Shown: in pieces, positions 5,001 to 54,726 of the stretch
Layout: every line of letters starts with the position of its first letter
Numbering within the stretch: the stretch's first letter is position 1
NCBI GenBank assembly: GCA_000688775.2
Contig: CP007628.2
Coordinates: 558,001 to 622,000 of the forward strand
Direction: 5' to 3'
Source of the DNA: Streptococcus sp. VT 162
Lineage (GTDB): Bacteria; Bacillota; Bacilli; Lactobacillales; Streptococcaceae
DNA length: 64,000 nucleotides
Notes under the pieces: model-generated
Told to the model about the DNA's origin: nothing
Databases searched by the model: none
What the model saw: the letters and a program-made list of their open reading frames with translations, nothing else
Translations under genes and position numbers: made by a program

Positions 5001-7380
5001 GGGTGAAATCAATAGACTGATGCTGCATTATGCAGATAAGACAATCTCTTATCTTGATCTGACCTACAAGGGTGATTTTGCCAATGGCCAGATTGCAGAA
5101 TATAGCATTGCTGATAAGAATTTGCTCTATACACCAGAGGCCTTTCTATCGGACTATCAGACCATTAAAGAGAATGTCTTGGATGAACTCAAAGCTGTGA
5201 CTTATGACTCAACTGCAGTGCGTAAGGTACTGGGAATTGGTGAAACAGCTTCCTTAGATGATCTTTATCTAGAAAAAGCCTTTGAACAAACCAAGGCTGA
5301 ACTAGGTCAGGAGCTCCTCAAGGTACTTTCAGTTGACAAGTCGATTAACACCCTAGGTTCTGCCGTAGCGGATGCGATTAGCCAAAAGATTCTAAAGAAC
5401 AAAGAGGCCTTCCTGCTTGGTCTGACCTATCTCAATCGTTGGTACAATGTCAACTATGGAACGTTCAACACCAAGGACCTTAATGCCTATAAGTTTGATT
5501 TCTTTGGTAATCAAGCAGCTTCGACACTGGATACTATCATTGCTCTCGGGAACTCTGGAATGGGCAATCTTCGAGCGCAAAACAACTTCAATGCTTACCG
5601 ACAATTCCTAGCCAAGGAAAAAGGCAAAGGAGACCTCTTTGCTTACTTAGAAAGTCTGCGCGAACTCTTCTTACCAAACAAAACCAACAGTGAGTGGTTC
5701 AAGGAAAATACCAAGGCTTATATCGTAGAAGCTCGTTCAAGTCTGCCAGAAATTCAGGCTAAACAGGACAATGCAGATCGTAAGAGTAAGTATACAATCA
5801 AGGTCTACGACAGACTGACTCAGGGAGATTGGGGCTTCAAGCAAATGGTCCTCCAACTTCTGACCTTACCTGAAAGAGATGTCTATATCATCAGCAATAT
5901 GTCGACCATTGCCTTTGGTAGCTTTGGAGGCTACAGGAAAGAAGGTGGCAGAGTTCTCTCAGGTGAGGAACTCCATCGACACGTTGAAAAACTTGTGGAT
6001 CAATCAGCTGAATGGCAACGAAACCACTATGACATGTGGTACAACATTCTAAGTCCAAACAGGAAAGACACTCTATTCAGACGGGTGATCGTTACAGACG
6101 GTTTCTTTCTTTATAATGATAAAGGCCAGCAATATTGGGCTCCGCGTAATGATAAGACCTCTGTTGCTATGTACAATTTCTTTGGCCCTGCTGGCAAATA
6201 TCACGGAGACAATGGACTAGGAGCCTTTGCCAATGGTTATGAAGTCTTCTACGTCTATGACCAGATGCTGGGAGCTTCTGGAACCATGGTCTATACCCAT
6301 GAAATGACCCACAACTCGGATGGTTCTATCTATTTTGAAGGACATGGTCGTCGTGAGGGTGAAGGACCTGAGAGTTTTGCTACAGGAATGTTAGAGTCTG
6401 TAACCAATGTTAGCGAAAAAGGTCTCGTGCTCAATAGCTTCTATCAGGGAGATAAAGATTCGACCACACGTTACCATACCTATGATCCTGTTGCCCGATT
6501 CTCCTCAGCAGATGCTCTTCGCGACTACATGCATGGAGTCTTTGATGTACTGAACCTTCTGGATTATGTAGAAGGGGATATTGTTACTGGAGTTCTAACT
6601 GATCAACAGAAAATGAAATGGTACCGTAAGGCTGAAAATTATAAATTTGAGAATACGTCTTATGGTAAACAAGCTCACGCTGATGATCGAATTGTCCCTA
6701 TAACTGCCGAAGAAGCAGCCAAACTAAAATCTGTCGATGCTCTGGTTGACCATAATATCATTGGTCGTCGCGATGGTTGGGATAGAGCTAGCTTTGGACG
6801 AAATGGCTACTATGTCATCAATATGTTTGCTTCCTTCTATGCAGCTCTGGACAATCCAACTGGTGCACCTGGGGGACTTATGTTCCGCCGTAGAGCTTAT
6901 GAATTGCTCGGAGACAAGGGTTACCAACAAGGATTTGTCCCATATGTATCTGGCCAATACGCTGGCCAAGCGCTTAAAGAAGGTCATAAGACCTACTCAA
7001 TCTGGAACAGAGGAGATGTCGGAGTAGTTGGAGATGATTTGGTTTTCAAAAATCTCTATGGTAGCCAGTATGAATCATGGAAGGATTTGAAGAAAGCCAT
7101 GTTGAATGAGCGATACAACAAGGCTCAAAACTTCCTTCGCCCTATCACTATCGAGTTTGAAGCAGGAAAACTAGATAGCAAACGACAAATTACGATTTCT
7201 TCTTATGAGGAATTACAAGATTATATGTACTTAGCAGTACTAGCGGATGCCTCAGCTAAGAACATTGATCGTGCCTTATCAGACAGCTCTAAGAGCAGTG
7301 TCGCCCAACTCAAGTATCGTATTTTCAATGCTTATCTACGTGCTACAGACGATTTCAGACAGTCTATCTTTGAAAGATAG
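2062..7380 (+). pseudogene. 5'-truncated IgA1 protease/ZmpB-family zinc metalloprotease
   Basis: The frame is open from 2053 to 7380 (GTG-started ORF at 2119), but there is no signal peptide, LPXTG segment, promoter or ribosome binding site. The sequence begins inside a G5 domain right at the end of a BOX element. In order: three G5 domains in tandem (period 285 nt, cores at 2122, 2407 and 2692), two FIVAR-like helical repeats (~2870-3280), the M26 N-terminal region with GLUG-type repeats (~4130-4500), and the M26 catalytic domain with HEMTH at 6298-6312 and the distal Glu at 6370. The catalytic part has no frameshift or stop, so the loss of the 5' end looks recent. Family members are cell-surface proteases, some of which cleave IgA1 or mucins. 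Expression from a distant promoter cannot be excluded, but the product would not be secreted. Confidence 0.8.
2122..2830 (+). repeat. 285-bp tandem repeats encoding G5 domains
   Basis: Three near-identical 95-residue units, with the RTIVTRQY core at 2122, 2407 and 2692. The first two units are almost identical in DNA, and the third diverges in its second half. Such arrays expand and contract by recombination, and one unit may have served as a breakpoint for the 5' deletion. Confidence 0.85.
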
Positions 7381-47756: not shown

Positions 47757-48266
47757 ATGAAGACGACATGTTCAATTAGAAAAATGCAAGAATCTGACAT
47801 AAAAGAACTATCTCGAGGATTTATCAGCCAAGGTTGGCCGGGTAGAGAAGAAATTTTGGCTAGATATTTTCTTGAACAAGAATGTGGGGAGAGAGAAGTC
47901 TTAGTTGCAGAGGTTGAGGGTGCTTTAGCGGGTTATATCACAATTTTGCCCTGCGCTAAGCAGGGGCCTTTTGCAGAAATCTATCCAGAACTCTCAGATT
48001 TCAATGTCTTTGAACCTTTTCAAAATCAAGGTATTGGAAATCTCTTGCTGGAAGAAGCAGAAAAACGAGTTAGGCTCATATCGGATAAGGTGACCCTTGG
48101 TGTTGGGCTCCATTCAGGGTATGGACCTGCCCAGAGATTGTACATCAAACGAGGCTATATTCCAGATGGGACGGGTGTTTGGTATCAGAACCATCAACCG
48201 GCCATGAATGCGGTTTGTGAAGATATCGGAGAATTGGTCTTGTATCTGTCGAAAAATTTGTTTTAA
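47757..48266 (+). CDS. GNAT-family N-acetyltransferase
   Basis: 169 aa. Acetyl-CoA binding region NQGIGNLLLEEAEKRVR (~95-111, the Q/RxxGxG/A motif) and a late YIKRGYIPDGTGVWY. It has its own extended -10 promoter (TGC-TATAATGG, near 47720) and ribosome binding site aaaggag. The substrate is unknown. Confidence 0.88.
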   Translation: MKTTCSIRKMQESDIKELSRGFISQGWPGREEILARYFLEQECGEREVLVAEVEGALAGYITILPCAKQGPFAEIYPELSDFNVFEPFQNQGIGNLLLEEAEKRVRLISDKVTLGVGLHSGYGPAQRLYIKRGYIPDGTGVWYQNHQPAMNAVCEDIGELVLYLSKNLF

Positions 48267-48313
48267 GACAGATTTTATAAGGTTTAAATTTTAAATATAG
48301 TAAACAATCACAG

Positions 48314-48344
48314 TCCCTTTTTCATTCGAAAAAGGGATTTTTTT
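48314..48344 (+). terminator. rho-independent terminator
   Basis: TCCCTTTTT / AAAAAGGGA stem with 6-nt loop and T-run. Confidence 0.85.
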
Positions 48345-48703
48345 GTTTGAAATTGTTTGATTTATTCCTCAAAGTGGTAAAATATAATTGTTTGAATTAT
48401 CAAGATAAAAATAAATATCGAAAAAAACATATAAGGTTTAGTTTTTTAAAATACGGATTCTTTTGAAAAGTCTTAAATTTTCCTAAAATAAGGCTTCTTA
48501 AAGGTTGTAAATAAAATTGTTACAAAAAGGTTACAAATTGTTAAAATTAAATTAAATGCAATAATATAATTTGGAAAAAATTTGACATATAAATTAATTG
48601 ACGGTAAAATAATTAAGATAATCAAATTAATTGATTTGCGCAATAATTCGATATAAAGATTAATCTGATGTGTCAAATTTTATTATAGTAGAAGGATAGC
48701 GTA
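48345..48703 (+). promoter_or_regulatory. AT-rich control region of the exopolysaccharide operon
   Basis: About 360 bp with no gene, far richer in A+T than its surroundings. A consensus promoter lies at 48582-48610: TTGACA, 17-nt spacer, TAAAAT. At the predicted transcription start is the inverted repeat AATCAA-ATTAA-TTGATT (48620-48636), a possible operator. The leader is about 87 nt. Repeated ggttac/ttgttac-like segments occur at ~48500-48540. No known riboswitch was recognised. Confidence 0.7.
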
Positions 48704-49852
48704 ATGAAGAAACTGAAAGTGATGGTTGTTTTTGGAACACGACCAGAAGCTATTAAAATGGCCCCTTTAGTGTTAGAATTGCAAAAACATAGTGACAGCA
48801 TTGAGACGATCACAGTTGTGACAGCTCAGCATCGCCAAATGCTAGATCAAGTTCTTGAAACTTTTAGCATCGAGCCACATTATGACCTGGATATTATGGG
48901 GAAAAATCAATCCCTCTTAGATATTACTGGAAAAATTTTAGAAAAGTTTGATCCAGTTGTTAAGCAAGAACTTCCAGATATGATTCTTGTTCACGGAGAC
49001 ACAACGACAACTTTTGCAGCAAGTTTAGTTGCTTTCTATAATCAGGTCCGTATCGGCCACGTCGAAGCCGGGCTAAGGACCTTTGATAAGTATTCTCCTT
49101 TCCCAGAAGAAATGAATCGTCAGATGACAGATAACCTTGCGGATCTTTATTTTGCTCCAACTAGTGAGAGTAAAGAAAATCTTCTTAAGGAAAATCATCC
49201 TGAGTCTGCTATTGTCATTACGGGGAATACAGCCATTGATGCCTTGAAACTAACCGTTCAATCGGATTACTATCATGAAGTTCTAGATCAATTGGATCCA
49301 GATAAGAAACTTGTATTGGTAACCATGCATCGTCGTGAGAATCAAGGTCAACCAATGAGAAATGTCTTTGCAGCTTTACGTGAGATGGTCGATCTTCATC
49401 AGGAAATTGAAGTTGTTTATCCTGTTCACCTTAGCCCTGCTGTGCAAGAAGCAGCAAACGATATCTTATCTGGTCACGATCGTATTCACTTGATCGAGCC
49501 TTTAGATGTACTTGATTTTCATAATTTGGCTTCAAGAAGCTATTTTATCATGACTGACTCTGGAGGTGTTCAAGAAGAGGCGCCTTCTCTCGGCAAACCT
49601 GTCCTTGTCCTTCGTGACACTACGGAACGTCCAGAAGGAGTAAGAGCAGGTACGTTGAAGCTAGTTGGTACGGATCCAGTACGTGTGAAAGAAGCGATGG
49701 CAGCACTCTTAACAGATGAAACTCTTTATAGACAAATGTCTCAGGCACCAAATCCTTATGGAGATGGAAGAGCCTCTGAACGAATCGTACAATCCATTCA
49801 ACAGTACTTTGGTGCAGCGACTTCGGTATCTGAATTCAAAGGGGGGAAATAA
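48704..49852 (+). CDS. wecB: UDP-N-acetylglucosamine 2-epimerase (non-hydrolysing)
   Basis: 382 aa, full length for WecB/MnaA. It converts UDP-GlcNAc to UDP-ManNAc. Family landmarks: VVFGTRPEAIKMAPLVLEL (8-26), VHGDTTTTFAASLVAFY (~95-111), VGHVEAGLRT-like GHVEAGLRTFDKYSPFPEEMNRQ, and TDSGGVQEEAPSLGKPVLVLRDTTERPEG. aaggatag is a moderate ribosome binding site. It is the first gene of a five-gene operon with a processive glycosyltransferase, which suggests UDP-ManNAc is the polymer precursor. No UDP-ManNAc dehydrogenase is present, so an uncharged ManNAc unit is more likely than ManNAcA. Confidence 0.93.
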   Translation: MKKLKVMVVFGTRPEAIKMAPLVLELQKHSDSIETITVVTAQHRQMLDQVLETFSIEPHYDLDIMGKNQSLLDITGKILEKFDPVVKQELPDMILVHGDTTTTFAASLVAFYNQVRIGHVEAGLRTFDKYSPFPEEMNRQMTDNLADLYFAPTSESKENLLKENHPESAIVITGNTAIDALKLTVQSDYYHEVLDQLDPDKKLVLVTMHRRENQGQPMRNVFAALREMVDLHQEIEVVYPVHLSPAVQEAANDILSGHDRIHLIEPLDVLDFHNLASRSYFIMTDSGGVQEEAPSLGKPVLVLRDTTERPEGVRAGTLKLVGTDPVRVKEAMAALLTDETLYRQMSQAPNPYGDGRASERIVQSIQQYFGAATSVSEFKGGK

Positions 49853-49858
49853 GATAAA

Positions 49859-50638
49859 ATGAAAAATTGGAGTCAATTTAAAAACTGGCTTATGGCTTTG
49901 CTTGCTTGTGAGGTCATTCTTTTGGTGCTTTGTTTTTTGTATGCTCGAGCAATCATTTTAGAACAAATCTTGTTTTTAGCTTTAGCCTTGTTTGCAGTGT
50001 TGGTATTATCTGACCTTTTACTTACTTGGACCCTTATCTTAGCATTTGGTTTTGGACTTATCGTTTTGGTTGCGGGTGTGGTTTATATCCCAATCATGCA
50101 ACTGGTCTTCTTATTGATCAGTTTTCCACTTTTGATTGGGATTCTACTTAAAGTTCGTTATTATTTCTTCAAGGTGGCCTCAAAGGTACAAGAACAGGAA
50201 GACGAAGCTCGAGTAGATTACCAAGCGATGGTCACTGAACAAAGTGATGTGATGGTACAGTTCTTATTGATTCATTGGTCACATGAAGATTTGTTCTTCC
50301 AGATTAAACCGAAAGAACATAACCAGATGCTCAGTCGCATTCAAGAGGTGATTGCTCAGGAATTGAGTTACAATGATAAGCTTTATTATGTTTCGGATGG
50401 TAATTTTCTCGTTCTATCGAGTACTAACCAACATTCTTTGAAGGAACTTTATTTGAATGGTTTGCAGGAGAAACTGAGCAGTTTAGTTTTTCATGGAGAA
50501 GATGGCAATCAAGGAGTTCAGTTCCAAACAGGCTATTTGGTGATTAACTCTGATAATAAAGATAAATACCAAGACTACGCGGATGTCGCCAGTCATCTCA
50601 AACGTCAACTAGAGACAGATGTAATTGTAGAATATTAG
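49859..50638 (+). CDS. four-helix membrane protein with degenerate GGDEF-like domain
   Basis: 259 aa, 6 nt after wecB. Four hydrophobic helices occupy about residues 10-115. A coiled linker (~118-135) follows, then a soluble ~115-residue domain with the fold pattern of a GGDEF domain. The turn DKLYYVSDGNFLVLSS (~172-187) aligns with the canonical ...R.GGDEFLVLL, with SDGNF (179-183) in place of GGDEF; catalytic acidic residues are lost. No RxxD inhibitory site is visible. It therefore cannot be a working diguanylate cyclase. It recalls PelD and PssE, membrane receptors with inactive GGDEF domains in other exopolysaccharide systems. Function inferred: control or assembly of the synthase. Confidence 0.7.
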   Translation: MKNWSQFKNWLMALLACEVILLVLCFLYARAIILEQILFLALALFAVLVLSDLLLTWTLILAFGFGLIVLVAGVVYIPIMQLVFLLISFPLLIGILLKVRYYFFKVASKVQEQEDEARVDYQAMVTEQSDVMVQFLLIHWSHEDLFFQIKPKEHNQMLSRIQEVIAQELSYNDKLYYVSDGNFLVLSSTNQHSLKELYLNGLQEKLSSLVFHGEDGNQGVQFQTGYLVINSDNKDKYQDYADVASHLKRQLETDVIVEY

Positions 50639-50647
50639 GAGGGAAAC

Positions 50648-50788
50648 ATGACTTTAACCGAACTATTTTTTGGTATTGCTTTGGGACTCAGTCTCGCCTT
50701 TGGCATTTGTTTTATCATACTATTTATTGCATACAATATTCTTTACCATCGAGTGAACAAAAATTTTAAGGCGGTGAATCATGATTAG
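50648..50788 (+). CDS. 46-aa single-helix membrane protein of the exopolysaccharide operon
   Basis: ATG 50648 has a strong site (taggaggg) 6 nt upstream. The product starts MTLTELFFGIALGLSL and has one long hydrophobic helix (~6-32), then a basic tail (YHRVNKNFKAVNHD). Its stop codon overlaps the synthase start by 8 nt, so the two are translationally coupled. It is well supported as a real gene by its position and ribosome binding site. It may be a small accessory subunit of the synthase, as small membrane peptides are in other synthase-dependent systems; this is inference. Confidence 0.7.
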   Translation: MTLTELFFGIALGLSLAFGICFIILFIAYNILYHRVNKNFKAVNHD

Positions 50789-52091
50789 TCAAATGTTAAT
50801 GATTTTTACCTTGCTTACAATTTGGATTTCTCTAGCTTGGGGCTTGGTAATTCTCTTTTCGGCAGTACACTTTTGGTTTAAACACAGTGATTTTCGTGTA
50901 GACACTTCGCCGCTACCTTATTATCCGAAGGTCACCATTGTTGTTCCTGCTCATAATGAGGATGTGGTTATTGCCCAAACGGCAAAAGCTATCTTAGATA
51001 TGAACTATCCTCACGACCGTGTGGAGTTGCTCTTGTTTGCGGATAACTGTTCGGATAACACCTATGCAGAATGTTTGTCTGTACAAGCCATGCCTGAATA
51101 TGCAGGAAGAAATCTGACTATTATCGACCGTACTGGTACGGGAGGAAAAGCGGGCGTTCTAAACGATGCTTTGGAGATGGCAACAGGCGAATACATCTGT
51201 GTCTATGATGCAGATGCCATGCCTGAAAAGAACGCCCTTTATTTCCTTGTAAAAGAAGTGATGAAGGATCCAGAACGTCATGTGGCATCTTTTGGTCGCA
51301 ATAAGACTCGGAATGCCAATCAAAATTTCTTGACTCGTTGTATCAACCAGGAAATTGTTGTTACTCAGCGCGTGCACCACGTTGGAATGTGGCATCTCTT
51401 TAAAATTGGGCGTATCCCAGGAACAAACTTTATCATTCAAACCGACTTTGTAAAGAGTATCGGTGGTTGGAAAAATGGTGCCTTAACCGAGGATACCGAT
51501 ATTTCCTTCAAAATCATGCAGAGTGGTAAATTGATTGCCCTTGCCTATAATTCAGAGGCTTTCCAACAAGAACCTGAGACCTTAAAGAGTTACTATATGC
51601 AGCGTAAACGTTGGGCGAAAGGAAATTATGAAGTTGTTCTCTCGAACTTTAAGCATTTATTTGGCAGAGCAAACTGGCGCGTTAAACTAGAAGTCTTTAA
51701 CTATTCTTGTGTTTTCTTTTGGTTTAACTTTGCTATTGTTCTTTCGGATTTGATTTTCCTAGCGAATGTGCTAGCGATCTGCCTTAATCTTTTCTTCCCA
51801 GATGTCAGGGTTCCATTTGCTTTTGATGCGGACAATATCTACATCGCCCAGCTCATGCTCTTTAACTGGATTCTCATGATTGGTCTTTATTTGATGCAAA
51901 TTATGACAGCATTAGCAAGTCAATTTGGACAAGCGACGACTAAACAAATCTGGTTGGCCTTGGCTGCCTATTTCACTTATGCACAGATGTTTATCGTTGT
52001 TTCCATTGATTCCATTTCTTCAATCGTGCTGGACAAAGTACTCCGACGAAAAGAAACCAAGTGGGTTAAAACCAAGCGATTTGCAGGATAG
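50781..52091 (+). CDS. processive GT2 glycosyltransferase (exopolysaccharide synthase)
   Basis: 436 aa. N-terminal helix (~8-30), cytosolic GT-A domain, then about four membrane helices. All motifs of processive synthases are present: VVPAHNED (~55-62), D143-A-D145 (DxD), the TED motif at 236-238, and Q274-R-K-R-W278 (QxxRW). The group includes BcsA, PgaC/IcaA and hyaluronan synthase. No PilZ domain follows. Ribosome binding site aaggcggtg. It would polymerise an activated sugar at the inner face and export the chain. UDP-ManNAc or UDP-GlcNAc is the likely donor given wecB. Confidence 0.9.
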   Translation: MISQMLMIFTLLTIWISLAWGLVILFSAVHFWFKHSDFRVDTSPLPYYPKVTIVVPAHNEDVVIAQTAKAILDMNYPHDRVELLLFADNCSDNTYAECLSVQAMPEYAGRNLTIIDRTGTGGKAGVLNDALEMATGEYICVYDADAMPEKNALYFLVKEVMKDPERHVASFGRNKTRNANQNFLTRCINQEIVVTQRVHHVGMWHLFKIGRIPGTNFIIQTDFVKSIGGWKNGALTEDTDISFKIMQSGKLIALAYNSEAFQQEPETLKSYYMQRKRWAKGNYEVVLSNFKHLFGRANWRVKLEVFNYSCVFFWFNFAIVLSDLIFLANVLAICLNLFFPDVRVPFAFDADNIYIAQLMLFNWILMIGLYLMQIMTALASQFGQATTKQIWLALAAYFTYAQMFIVVSIDSISSIVLDKVLRRKETKWVKTKRFAG

Positions 52092-52099
52092 GAGGTTCT

Positions 52100-53203
52100 A
52101 TGAAAACGAATAAATTAAAATATGTCTGGTTTGTGCTCATTCTTTCTATCTTTTGTTTAGCCTTGTTTTTAGTAAGAGGAAGGACTAAAATCGAGATGCG
52201 TAATCGAATTTACAGTCAATGGAGTCAACAGTTCCTTGTTACAAAAGGCGATCAGTCTTATGTTCGTACGACGAATGATTCTGAGGAAACGACAGTTCTA
52301 TCAGAAGCTCAAAGTTACGGCATGCTCATAACGGTTTTAGCAGCCCAAAAAGGTCAAGCAAGTCAATCAGATTTTGATAACCTTTATCGCTATTACCAAA
52401 ATCATCGTATCGAGGGAACGCAGTTGATGTCTTGGAAGCAAGTGATCACAAATGGTAGCGAATCGGTTGAGAAGCAAAACGCAACCGATGGTGATCTCTA
52501 CATCGCTTATTCTTTGATTGAAGCTGCCAAGCAGTGGCCTGATAAAGCACAGGAATACCAAGCGCAAGCTAAAAAAATCTTGGATGATATCCTTAAATAC
52601 AATTATAATGAAGAGACAGGTGTCCTAACAGTAGGGAACTGGGCGAACAAGGATTCCGATTATTATTACTTGATGCGGACTTCTGACACCTTACCTCACT
52701 ATTTCCAGTCTTTCTATGACCTGACTGGAAACAAACAGTGGTTAGATGTTAAGGATAAGATGCTTGGGCAATTGGAGCAAATCAGTTCTCATTCTGATAC
52801 GGGTCTCTTGCCAGACTTTATTTGGGCTGAGAAGTCAGGGGCACGTCTTGTTGATGCCAACACTATCGAATCTCAATACGATGGAGCTTATTCTTATAAT
52901 GCTTGTCGTTTGCCGTATCACTTATCTCAAAGTCAAGATGAAAGAAGCCAAAAACTCGTTCAAAAGATGATGGATTTCTTTATGAAAGAGCAGCGTATTT
53001 ATGCGGGTTATGACTTGAACGGAACGGCCCTCAATCAATACCAGGCAGGTAGTTTCTTGGCACCGATTACCTATGCATCTGACAAGGGAGAAGGTTATCT
53101 GAAACTTCTTCAGCAAAATAAATACATTTTCACACAAGATTTACCTTTGGACAACTACTATGATGCAACGATGATTACCATGATTGCTCTAGAGATGTTC
53201 TAG
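52100..53203 (+). CDS. membrane-anchored glycoside hydrolase family 8 enzyme
   Basis: 367 aa. An uncleaved-looking N-terminal anchor (~8-26) is followed by an extracellular (alpha/alpha)6 GH8 domain. SEAQSYGM holds the probable general acid Glu69, and ATDGDLYIAYSLIEA (128-142) is the GH8 signature with Asp130/Asp132. Preceded by taggaggt. GH8 enzymes cut beta-1,4 glycans such as cellulose and chitosan, and BcsZ plays this role beside cellulose synthase. Here it probably trims or releases the polymer made by the neighbouring synthase. Last gene of the operon. Confidence 0.88.
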   Translation: MKTNKLKYVWFVLILSIFCLALFLVRGRTKIEMRNRIYSQWSQQFLVTKGDQSYVRTTNDSEETTVLSEAQSYGMLITVLAAQKGQASQSDFDNLYRYYQNHRIEGTQLMSWKQVITNGSESVEKQNATDGDLYIAYSLIEAAKQWPDKAQEYQAQAKKILDDILKYNYNEETGVLTVGNWANKDSDYYYLMRTSDTLPHYFQSFYDLTGNKQWLDVKDKMLGQLEQISSHSDTGLLPDFIWAEKSGARLVDANTIESQYDGAYSYNACRLPYHLSQSQDERSQKLVQKMMDFFMKEQRIYAGYDLNGTALNQYQAGSFLAPITYASDKGEGYLKLLQQNKYIFTQDLPLDNYYDATMITMIALEMF

Positions 53204-53207
53204 AATG

Positions 53208-53241
53208 AAAAGAGAGGGCTAGTTATACTAGCTCTCTTTTT
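53208..53241 (+). terminator. exopolysaccharide operon terminator
   Basis: AAAAGAGAG-GG-CTAGT / ACTAG-CTCTCTTTT stem with two-base bulge and T-run. Confidence 0.85.
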
Positions 53242-53325
53242 GATAGGATTTTCATCTTTTTTCAAAAAAGGAATTTCCTAAGGTTTATGGTATAATGGAA
53301 GGAGTGATGGAAAAGAGGTAGAGAG

Positions 53326-54726
53326 ATGGATGCGAAATTAAAATACAAGGCAAAGAAGATTAAAATCATCTTTTTTGATATTGATGATACCTTGCGTACG
53401 TCAAAGACAGGTTTTATTCCAGCTACAATTCCCACGCTCTTTAAACAGTTGCGTGAAAAAGGAATTTTAACAGGAATTGCCTCTGGTCGTGGTATTTTCG
53501 GTGTTGTCCCAGAGATTCGTGAGCTCAAACCGGACTTTTTTGTAACCCTAAATGGTGCCTATATTGAAGATAAAAAAGGCCAGGTCATTTATCAGCATCA
53601 GATTGAGAAGTCAGATGTTGAGGAGTACATTTCTTGGACAAAGCGAGAGGGAATTGAATATGGCTTGGTTGGTAGTCATGACGCCAAACTCTCTACGCGA
53701 ACAGAACTGATCAGTGAGGCTATTGACCCGATTTATCCAAACTTGAATGTGGATCCTAACTTCCATGAAAAAGCGGACATTTACCAGATGTGGACCTTTG
53801 AGGAAAAAGGGGATGACTTGCGGTTACCAGATAGTCTCTCTGGTAAACTTCGCATGGTGCGTTGGCATGAACATTCATCTGATATCGTGCCGATTTCAGG
53901 ATCCAAAGCAACTGGTGTAGCCAAGGTGGTGGAGCACTTAGGCTTAAAACCAGAGAATGTCATGGTCTTTGGGGATGGTCTCAATGACTTGGAACTCTTT
54001 GATTATGCTGGAATCAGTATTGCTATGGGTGTTTCCCATGAAAAAATCAAAGAAAAAGCAGATTATATTACAAAAACAGTAGAAGAAGATGGCATTTTTG
54101 ATGCTTTAGAAGGATTTGGTATGGTAGAAAAAGAATTGCATTTCCCACAAGTAGAAATTGAAACAGTAGAAGGTCCTCTTGCGACCATTAAGACAAATCA
54201 CGGAGACTTGCGTATCAAGCTTTTCCCTGAACAGGCTCCTAAAACAGTGGCTAACTTTGTTGCTCTGTCAAAAGATGGTTACTATGATGGTGTCATTTTC
54301 CACCGAATTATCAAGGACTTTATGATCCAAGGTGGAGACCCAACTGGTACTGGTATGGGGGGCGAGTCAATCTACGGTGACTCTTTTGCAGATGAATTTT
54401 CTGAAGAACTCTATAATATCCGTGGTGCCCTTTCTATGGCCAATGCGGGTCCAAATACCAATGGTAGCCAGTTCTTTATCGTGCAAAACCAACACTTGCC
54501 GTACTCTAAGAAAGAGATTGCGCGTGGTGGCTGGCCTGAACCAATCGCTGAGATTTATGCAGAACAAGGTGGAACTCCTCACCTTGACCGTCGCCATACT
54601 GTTTTTGGGCAATTGGTGGACGCAGAATCGTTTGCGGTCTTGGATGCCATTGCAGCTGTTGAGACTGGTGCAATGGACAAACCAGTTGAAGATGTAGTAA
54701 TTGAAACGATTGAAATTGAGGACTAG
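53326..54726 (+). CDS. fusion of Cof-type HAD phosphatase and cyclophilin peptidyl-prolyl isomerase
   Basis: 466 aa. Residues ~14-265 form a Cof/HAD-IIB phosphatase: FFDIDDTLRT (nucleophile Asp) and VFGDGLNDLELF (metal-binding motif IV). Residues ~285-465 form a cyclophilin: FHRIIKDFMIQGGDPTGTG, SMANAGPNTNGSQFFI and the HTVFGQLV loop, all typical of active isomerases. The junction is continuous, with no frameshift. No signal peptide, so it is cytoplasmic. It overlaps no neighbour; the S1-domain gene starts 1 nt after its stop codon. This fusion is seen in streptococci. Confidence 0.93.
   Translation: MDAKLKYKAKKIKIIFFDIDDTLRTSKTGFIPATIPTLFKQLREKGILTGIASGRGIFGVVPEIRELKPDFFVTLNGAYIEDKKGQVIYQHQIEKSDVEEYISWTKREGIEYGLVGSHDAKLSTRTELISEAIDPIYPNLNVDPNFHEKADIYQMWTFEEKGDDLRLPDSLSGKLRMVRWHEHSSDIVPISGSKATGVAKVVEHLGLKPENVMVFGDGLNDLELFDYAGISIAMGVSHEKIKEKADYITKTVEEDGIFDALEGFGMVEKELHFPQVEIETVEGPLATIKTNHGDLRIKLFPEQAPKTVANFVALSKDGYYDGVIFHRIIKDFMIQGGDPTGTGMGGESIYGDSFADEFSEELYNIRGALSMANAGPNTNGSQFFIVQNQHLPYSKKEIARGGWPEPIAEIYAEQGGTPHLDRRHTVFGQLVDAESFAVLDAIAAVETGAMDKPVEDVVIETIEIED

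Follow-up and report, generated by a model that had tools for sequence, protein, structure and literature searches.

The described systems closest to the locus reported here pair a membrane synthase of glycosyltransferase family 2 (GT2) with a degenerate GGDEF protein. According to excerpts of the papers cited here and below, Listeria Pss is a β-1,4-linked N-acetylmannosamine (ManNAc) chain (PMC11439720), PssE is an I-site receptor for cyclic di-GMP (c-di-GMP) and PssD is a BcsB orthologue (PMC4125290), while YdaK of Bacillus subtilis combines four membrane helices with a degenerate GGDEF domain and is encoded in the same operon as a GT2 synthase (PMC5422440). Both PssE and YdaK depend on the I-site (PMC4125290, PMC5422440); in YdaK, R202 and D205 are both required for exopolysaccharide, and R202A abolishes c-di-GMP binding (PMC5422440, PMC7064775). 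Among Gram-positive Pel loci, streptococcal PelD has lost its c-di-GMP receptor function together with the entire GGDEF domain (PMC7112168), and c-di-GMP pathways have been said to be wholly absent from streptococci and enterococci (PMC4125290). Here we analyze a five-gene operon in a 64,000-nucleotide stretch of the mouth bacterium Streptococcus sp. VT 162 (GCA_000688775.2, contig CP007628.2, positions 558,001 to 622,000; hereafter, the window). We read it as encoding synthase-dependent production of a ManNAc polymer, uncoupled from c-di-GMP, and give this reading, in which we infer both the polymer and its regulation, a probability of roughly 0.58.

Composition, co-occurrence and synthase class

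The operon comprises five open reading frames (ORFs) on the forward strand at 48704-53203, where the preliminary description had placed them, with intergenic distances of 6, 9, -8 and 8 bases in order. The first gene, wecB (48704-49852, 382 aa), encodes a non-hydrolysing UDP-N-acetylglucosamine (UDP-GlcNAc) 2-epimerase. Gene 2 (49859-50638, 259 aa) encodes four membrane helices and a GGDEF-fold domain in which the active site is degenerate (SDGNF) and the I-site arginine is missing. Gene 3 (50648-50788) encodes a 46-aa peptide that, in an alignment of 13 streptococcal copies, shows a single hydrophobic helix and a basic tail at the C terminus, and it overlaps the start of gene 4 by 8 nt. Gene 4 (50781-52091, 436 aa) is the GT2 membrane synthase, with DxD, TED and QxxRW motifs, and gene 5 (52100-53203, 367 aa) is a GH8 glycoside hydrolase whose N-terminal hydrophobic helix, judged by eye, is an anchor or signal.

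The expectation that these genes co-occur across genomes was borne out. Among 147 Streptococcus genomes, matches to gene 2 (E ≤ 0.001) and gene 4 (E ≤ 1e-60) fall in the same 32; the order of genes 1-4 is identical in 30/30 loci examined, with the peptide beside the synthase in all 30. Each of 14 wider loci has genes 1, 2, 4 and 5; gene 3 is an ORF in 13 of them and was recovered by tblastn in the fourteenth. The gene-2 profile matches 36/295 Lactobacillales genomes and 9/74 genera, and the operon is therefore scattered rather than universal. The idea of a system peculiar to the mitis group fails: the operon also occurs elsewhere in Streptococcus and in a scatter of Lactobacillales genera, and other Bacilli have a related form. 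Among the matches listed are S. sanguinis, S. parasanguinis, S. australis, S. ferus and S. macacae and, outside Streptococcus, Lactobacillus, Liquorilactobacillus, Weissella, Leuconostoc, Enterococcus and Lactococcus.

When named genomes were scanned with the GT2 alignment, at least 78 loci were returned; 67 of these (L032-L098) were annotated, and the other 11 are distant GT2s of 24-34% identity. Near the GT2 of the 67 annotated loci we found gene 2 in 63, GH8 in 62, the peptide by profile in 50 and the epimerase in 39. The four loci without gene 2 comprise one frameshifted (L070), one decayed (L072), one missed by the first profile (L073) and one at a contig edge (L088). In three of the five loci without GH8, the contig ends within the GT2 or just past it. 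Where the profile missed the peptide (17 loci), a short hydrophobic frame is present by eye in 16, and the seventeenth, L088, is cut by the contig edge.

The synthase scores 79 bits against PF13641 (cut-off 27), its DxD, TED and QxxRW motifs are invariant among 24 aligned synthases, and it bears structural likeness to the hyaluronan synthase and BcsA folds. It scores 81.7 bits against the BcsA model TIGR03030 (cut-off 699.1) and has no PilZ match. By its motifs and membrane-channel architecture, it fits the broad class of processive polysaccharide synthases, as the preliminary description had proposed for a synthase-dependent operon.

We surveyed 398 Bacilli genomes with a GT2 profile at E ≤ 1e-45, which matched 92, and inspected 20 loci; two are Lactobacillales, two are other GT2s and one, L221, is unplaced. 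In L207-L214 (GT2 E 1e-180 or better), a GH8-like gene lies upstream in 8/8, a gene-2 homologue is present in 7/8 and the peptide is found by profile in 5/8. Five loci that we term yda-like (L217-L220, L222) carry a GH8-like gene, a GGDEF protein, a 570-aa protein, a GT2 and a ~700-aa protein; in L217, the sole yda-like locus checked, the 570-aa protein is DUF2334 and the ~700-aa protein BcsB. In two loci termed pss-like (L215, L216), the GGDEF gene comes last, as in pss. A maximum-likelihood tree groups the eight L207-L214 rows with 26 Lactobacillales-kind rows in one clade (100/99), apart from the five yda-like rows and the two pss-like rows, which were assigned by gene order and are not Listeria itself; none of the rows is named as Listeria or B. 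subtilis, and the program gave a warning of meeting long branches. On this tree, the window synthase belongs to a separate clade, distinct from the yda-like and pss-like synthases. Because this clade is separate, the I-site is lost (see below) and a BcsB-like subunit has no match at E ≤ 1 among the five operon proteins, the rest of the genome not having been searched, the operon is not a Pss-type locus, contrary to what its initial likening to Pss implied.

These five genes probably make an N-acetylmannosamine chain on the cell surface. WecB would convert UDP-GlcNAc to UDP-ManNAc, which the GT2 would polymerize, in a linkage that is likewise a prediction, while passing the chain out through a membrane channel of its own. 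The GT2 would form a complex with two membrane partners, the four-helix GGDEF-like protein and the 46-aa peptide, and the membrane-anchored GH8 may trim or free the exported chain outside the cell. The polymer could instead be mixed or decorated, with ManNAc alternating with, or branched by, a sugar contributed by a gene elsewhere. Listeria Pss, as described in the excerpted report, offers a precedent, carrying α-Gal on alternate ManNAc residues (PMC11439720), but the operon has a single transferase gene at the loci examined, and we consider a decorated chain unlikely, at something over one chance in five.

The GGDEF-like partner and its I-site

In single-sequence scans, neither gene 2 nor the 46-aa protein reaches a Pfam or NCBIfam cut-off. 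The link of gene 2 to GGDEF proteins was seen with a 49-row profile, to which unrelated chains (designed knot proteins, for example) match at E 1.6e-5 as well. Gene-2 copies of Lactiplantibacillus, Levilactobacillus and Enterococcus, paired to gene 2 by coordinates for L074 and L087 and by length for the others, also show the GGDEF link. The fold is that of GGDEF, with SDGNF at the GGDEF position of a four-helix protein as first described, and the architecture of four membrane helices plus GGDEF fold is that of Pss/Yda-type receptors.

We then examined the alignment columns of the YdaK I-site. RxxD occupies them in all 14 homologues from outside Lactobacillales, namely 7/7 gene-2 homologues of L207-L214, 5/5 yda-like and 2/2 pss-like proteins, and in 0/18 streptococcal and 0/33 other Lactobacillales rows. 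No streptococcal row has RxxD at the site or within about eight columns of it, and none has arginine in the I-site arginine column, where serine is commonest (7/18). In 27 of the 33 non-streptococcal Lactobacillales rows, from lactobacilli, enterococci, Weissella and Lactococcus, an arginine stands one column earlier in an RLPSE-like motif, and 5/33 have RxxD in that shifted register. This arginine may mark a shifted binding site. Because lactobacilli and enterococci carry the shifted arginine and some carry the shifted RxxD, we limit the statement of site loss to Streptococcus, for which the aligned rows make it firm.

Gene 2 is nevertheless retained. Its ratio of nonsynonymous to synonymous substitution rates (dN/dS) is 0.14-0.21 against five relatives, which rules out decay, and that of the GT2 is 0.02-0.05 in the four relatives for which it was computable; gene 2 is thus under purifying selection, though far less constrained than the synthase. 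In two relatives (G119, G060), gene 2 differs from the window copy by a dS of ~1.4, compared with 0.27-0.35 for epimerase, GT2 and GH8, and identity of window positions 49700-50700 to L143 and L144 falls to 0.68-0.79 between flanks of 0.84-0.99. The dN/dS of 1.05 between G119 and G060 themselves is uninformative, as dS is just 0.013. Plain fast evolution of gene 2 is disfavoured by a high dS limited to this gene and by the local identity dip, and replacement by a distant allele through recombination reads better as an account of these sequences.

In homologues outside Lactobacillales, an I-site-bearing partner would turn the synthase on upon binding c-di-GMP, following the YdaK and PssE precedent. 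With the I-site gone in Streptococcus, the partner would now serve as a subunit that is structural or under some other control, which would leave the synthase deaf to c-di-GMP. Alternatively, gene 2 may still act as a receptor, either binding c-di-GMP at a displaced or different site or responding to some other ligand, for example c-di-AMP or GTP. This would be compatible with the retention of fold and gene under purifying selection, with the displaced arginine of lactobacilli and enterococci, with the ATPase activity reported for a degenerate GGDEF domain (in the excerpted review PMC10333796) and with S. vestibularis, which has operon and diguanylate cyclase together. Set against it are the absence of RxxD in and around the site in all streptococcal rows and a window genome in which a PF00990 (GGDEF) search gave no match. 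We put a retained receptor at about one in five.

More broadly, a strong GGDEF match is found in 15 of the 44 operon genomes that were reached by locus, S. vestibularis among them; we therefore argue uncoupling from the lost site and not from absent enzymes. Mutual exclusion of operon and diguanylate cyclases was considered and set aside (0/32 operon genomes versus 7/115 others, p 0.35, with S. vestibularis having both), and is not used as evidence.

Epimerase, hydrolase and the sugar of the polymer

WecB scores 520.1 bits against the TIGR00236 equivalog model (cut-off 210.15) and matches epimerases in the PDB at E 6.5e-160. It is the single PF02350 gene of the window genome, which has no PF03808 (TagA/WecG) gene, in keeping with its proposed role as a dedicated epimerase. 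Across the 147 Streptococcus genomes, PF02350 is matched in 64, comprising 32/32 operon genomes but 32/115 others. Strong matches (E 1.5e-118 or better) occur in 47, these being the 32 operon genomes and 15/115 others; in 13 of those 15, PF03808 lies on the same contig within 10 kb. Among the operon genomes, 27/32 have no epimerase beyond the operon's and no TagA-type ManNAc transferase. PF03808 is present in exactly the other five, each with a second PF02350 gene within 10 kb of it. From this pattern, a strong epimerase is nearly always paired with either a ManNAc transferase or this synthase, 2/47 genomes fitting neither pairing. The distribution amounts to a natural experiment that supports UDP-ManNAc as the probable substrate of the synthase. 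Outside Streptococcus, an epimerase is present in 44/44 operon genomes, two as fragments or halves, a weak comparison with no operon-free baseline.

The last gene was correctly taken for a GH8 hydrolase, scoring 106.1 bits against PF01270 (cut-off 24, E 2.6e-30); its nearest solved structures are a glucanase (2.4e-38) and chitosanases (about 2.5e-27). Residues E69, D130, D132, D196 and D261, among which we presume the catalytic acids to lie, are invariant in 56/56 Lactobacillales copies. Because the GH8-like proteins of other Bacilli belong to a different subtype and are encoded first in the operon, the hydrolase was probably exchanged.

The hydrolase also bears on whether the polymer is instead GlcNAc-based (chitin-, chitosan- or poly-N-acetylglucosamine (PNAG)-like), with the epimerase feeding another pathway or setting the UDP-GlcNAc level. 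The chitosanases among its relatives would suit such a polymer, as would the fact that PgaC/IcaA is the top-scoring NCBIfam model for the GT2. However, the GT2 scores 129.9 bits against that PNAG synthase model (TIGR03937; cut-off 422.3), Pfam and NCBIfam scans of the five proteins found no deacetylase, and both the enrichment of the epimerase in operon genomes and its lack of a TagA-type user in 27 of them speak for ManNAc. A GlcNAc polymer is accordingly improbable in our estimate, at perhaps one chance in seven. That the GT2 is non-processive, making a glycolipid or decorating a wall polymer, is very improbable; it does not group with non-processive or lipid glycosyltransferases.

Genomic setting and comparison with known systems

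A promoter-like site, TTGACA-17-TAAAAT (48582-48610, forward strand), is predicted upstream of wecB and has 11/12 consensus bases. The single promoter of the preliminary description is thus present as a match, but taken alone this match is weak because such sites are frequent in the region (23 in 48200-53400 versus 13.7 expected). The terminator postulated after the GH8 gene is well supported, with a hairpin followed by a U run (53209-53241, forward strand); the fold of 53195-53250 has -22.6 kcal/mol and a z of -4.77, with 0/200 shuffles equally good. A defence role was set aside, as genes 2-5 have no PADLOC match.

The block had been taken for an accessory insertion between rpsR and a HAD-cyclophilin gene. 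Its accessory nature stands, but a GNAT gene (47757-48266) also separates rpsR from the operon. GNAT and HAD-cyclophilin genes flank the operon in the window and four close relatives (L140, L142-L144), and flanking genes differ in the remaining 10 of the 14 wider loci. In the HAD-cyclophilin region of six relatives, three have GNAT adjoining at a distance of ~90 bp with no operon between, and in the other three neither rpsR nor GNAT is in the stretch around HAD-cyclophilin. In L072, a decayed operon lies ahead of HAD-cyclophilin. Given the operon-free GNAT/HAD-cyclophilin junctions and this decayed copy, the block is accessory in the window's lineage.

Further observations concern individual loci. 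In L140, the epimerase frame (5322-6890) extends to 522 aa, against 382. In Streptococcus sp. DD12, the GH8 gene is followed by a second frame resembling gene 2, 249 aa long (L039, 11028-11774; profile E ≤ 0.01), and another Streptococcus locus (L156, 1646-9695) encodes a 362-aa GGDEF protein with GT2s of 445 and 764 aa. L138 (6809-14054) and L141 (751-7205) carry a PAS-GGDEF diguanylate cyclase, a GT2-GtrA protein, a 745-aa BcsA-PilZ protein and a 651-aa protein, the Pfam annotation having been run on L138 and not L141. This module lies directly behind a wecB remnant, which in L138 is 97% identical over 76 aa to the operon wecB of S. vestibularis, and may have replaced an operon of the window's kind there. 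Modules of this c-di-GMP kind are already known in some streptococci, according to the excerpted PMC10333796.

In open-licence literature, we found no description of the operon in Streptococcus or Lactobacillales; its parts are of known kinds, and what we did not find described there is the way they are combined, the separate clade of the synthase and the loss of the site from a GGDEF domain that is kept. We tentatively suggest, at somewhat less than even odds, that it represents a distinct class of ManNAc-polymer operon scattered in Lactobacillales, with a receptor turned signal-free or repurposed partner, a 46-aa peptide and no BcsB-like subunit, making a Pss-like polymer in mouth and gut bacteria mostly without c-di-GMP. 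If the polymer is ManNAc, it would be an undescribed surface glycan common to S. sanguinis, S. oralis, S. parasanguinis, several lactobacilli, Weissella and enterococci, and could matter for dental and gut biofilms.

The operon resembles B. subtilis ydaJ-N in uniting a four-helix degenerate GGDEF protein and a GT2, and yda-like loci also have a GH8-like gene. However, YdaK has and needs RxxD, as excerpted, and window gene 2 has none; yda-like loci further differ in their DUF2334 and BcsB proteins, in having no 46-aa peptide or wecB and in their separate GT2 clade. With Listeria monocytogenes pssA-E it shares a GT2 and an enzymatically dead GGDEF protein, and the ManNAc product made in Listeria is predicted here; the I-site receptor and BcsB orthologue described in the Listeria excerpts were not found in the window operon. 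The PNAG synthases IcaA-IcaD and PgaC-PgaD likewise combine a GT2 and a small membrane partner (excerpted from PMC7112194), but the window GT2 falls far below their family cut-off, no deacetylase is present, and a one-helix 46-aa partner is accompanied by a GGDEF-like protein. Lactobacillus acidophilus gts pairs a GT2 with a dead c-di-GMP enzyme, the degenerate EAL protein PdeB (PMC6123363, in excerpt), GtsA and GtsB being likened by description. The nearest published parallel found, in the excerpts available, is the Pel loci, as streptococcal polysaccharide loci with a receptor that lost its function. The window operon has no pel genes, and its gene 2 keeps the GGDEF domain and loses just the site; with fold and gene kept and a site-bearing form in other Bacilli, it would offer a clean case in which to ask how a receptor turns into a structural subunit.

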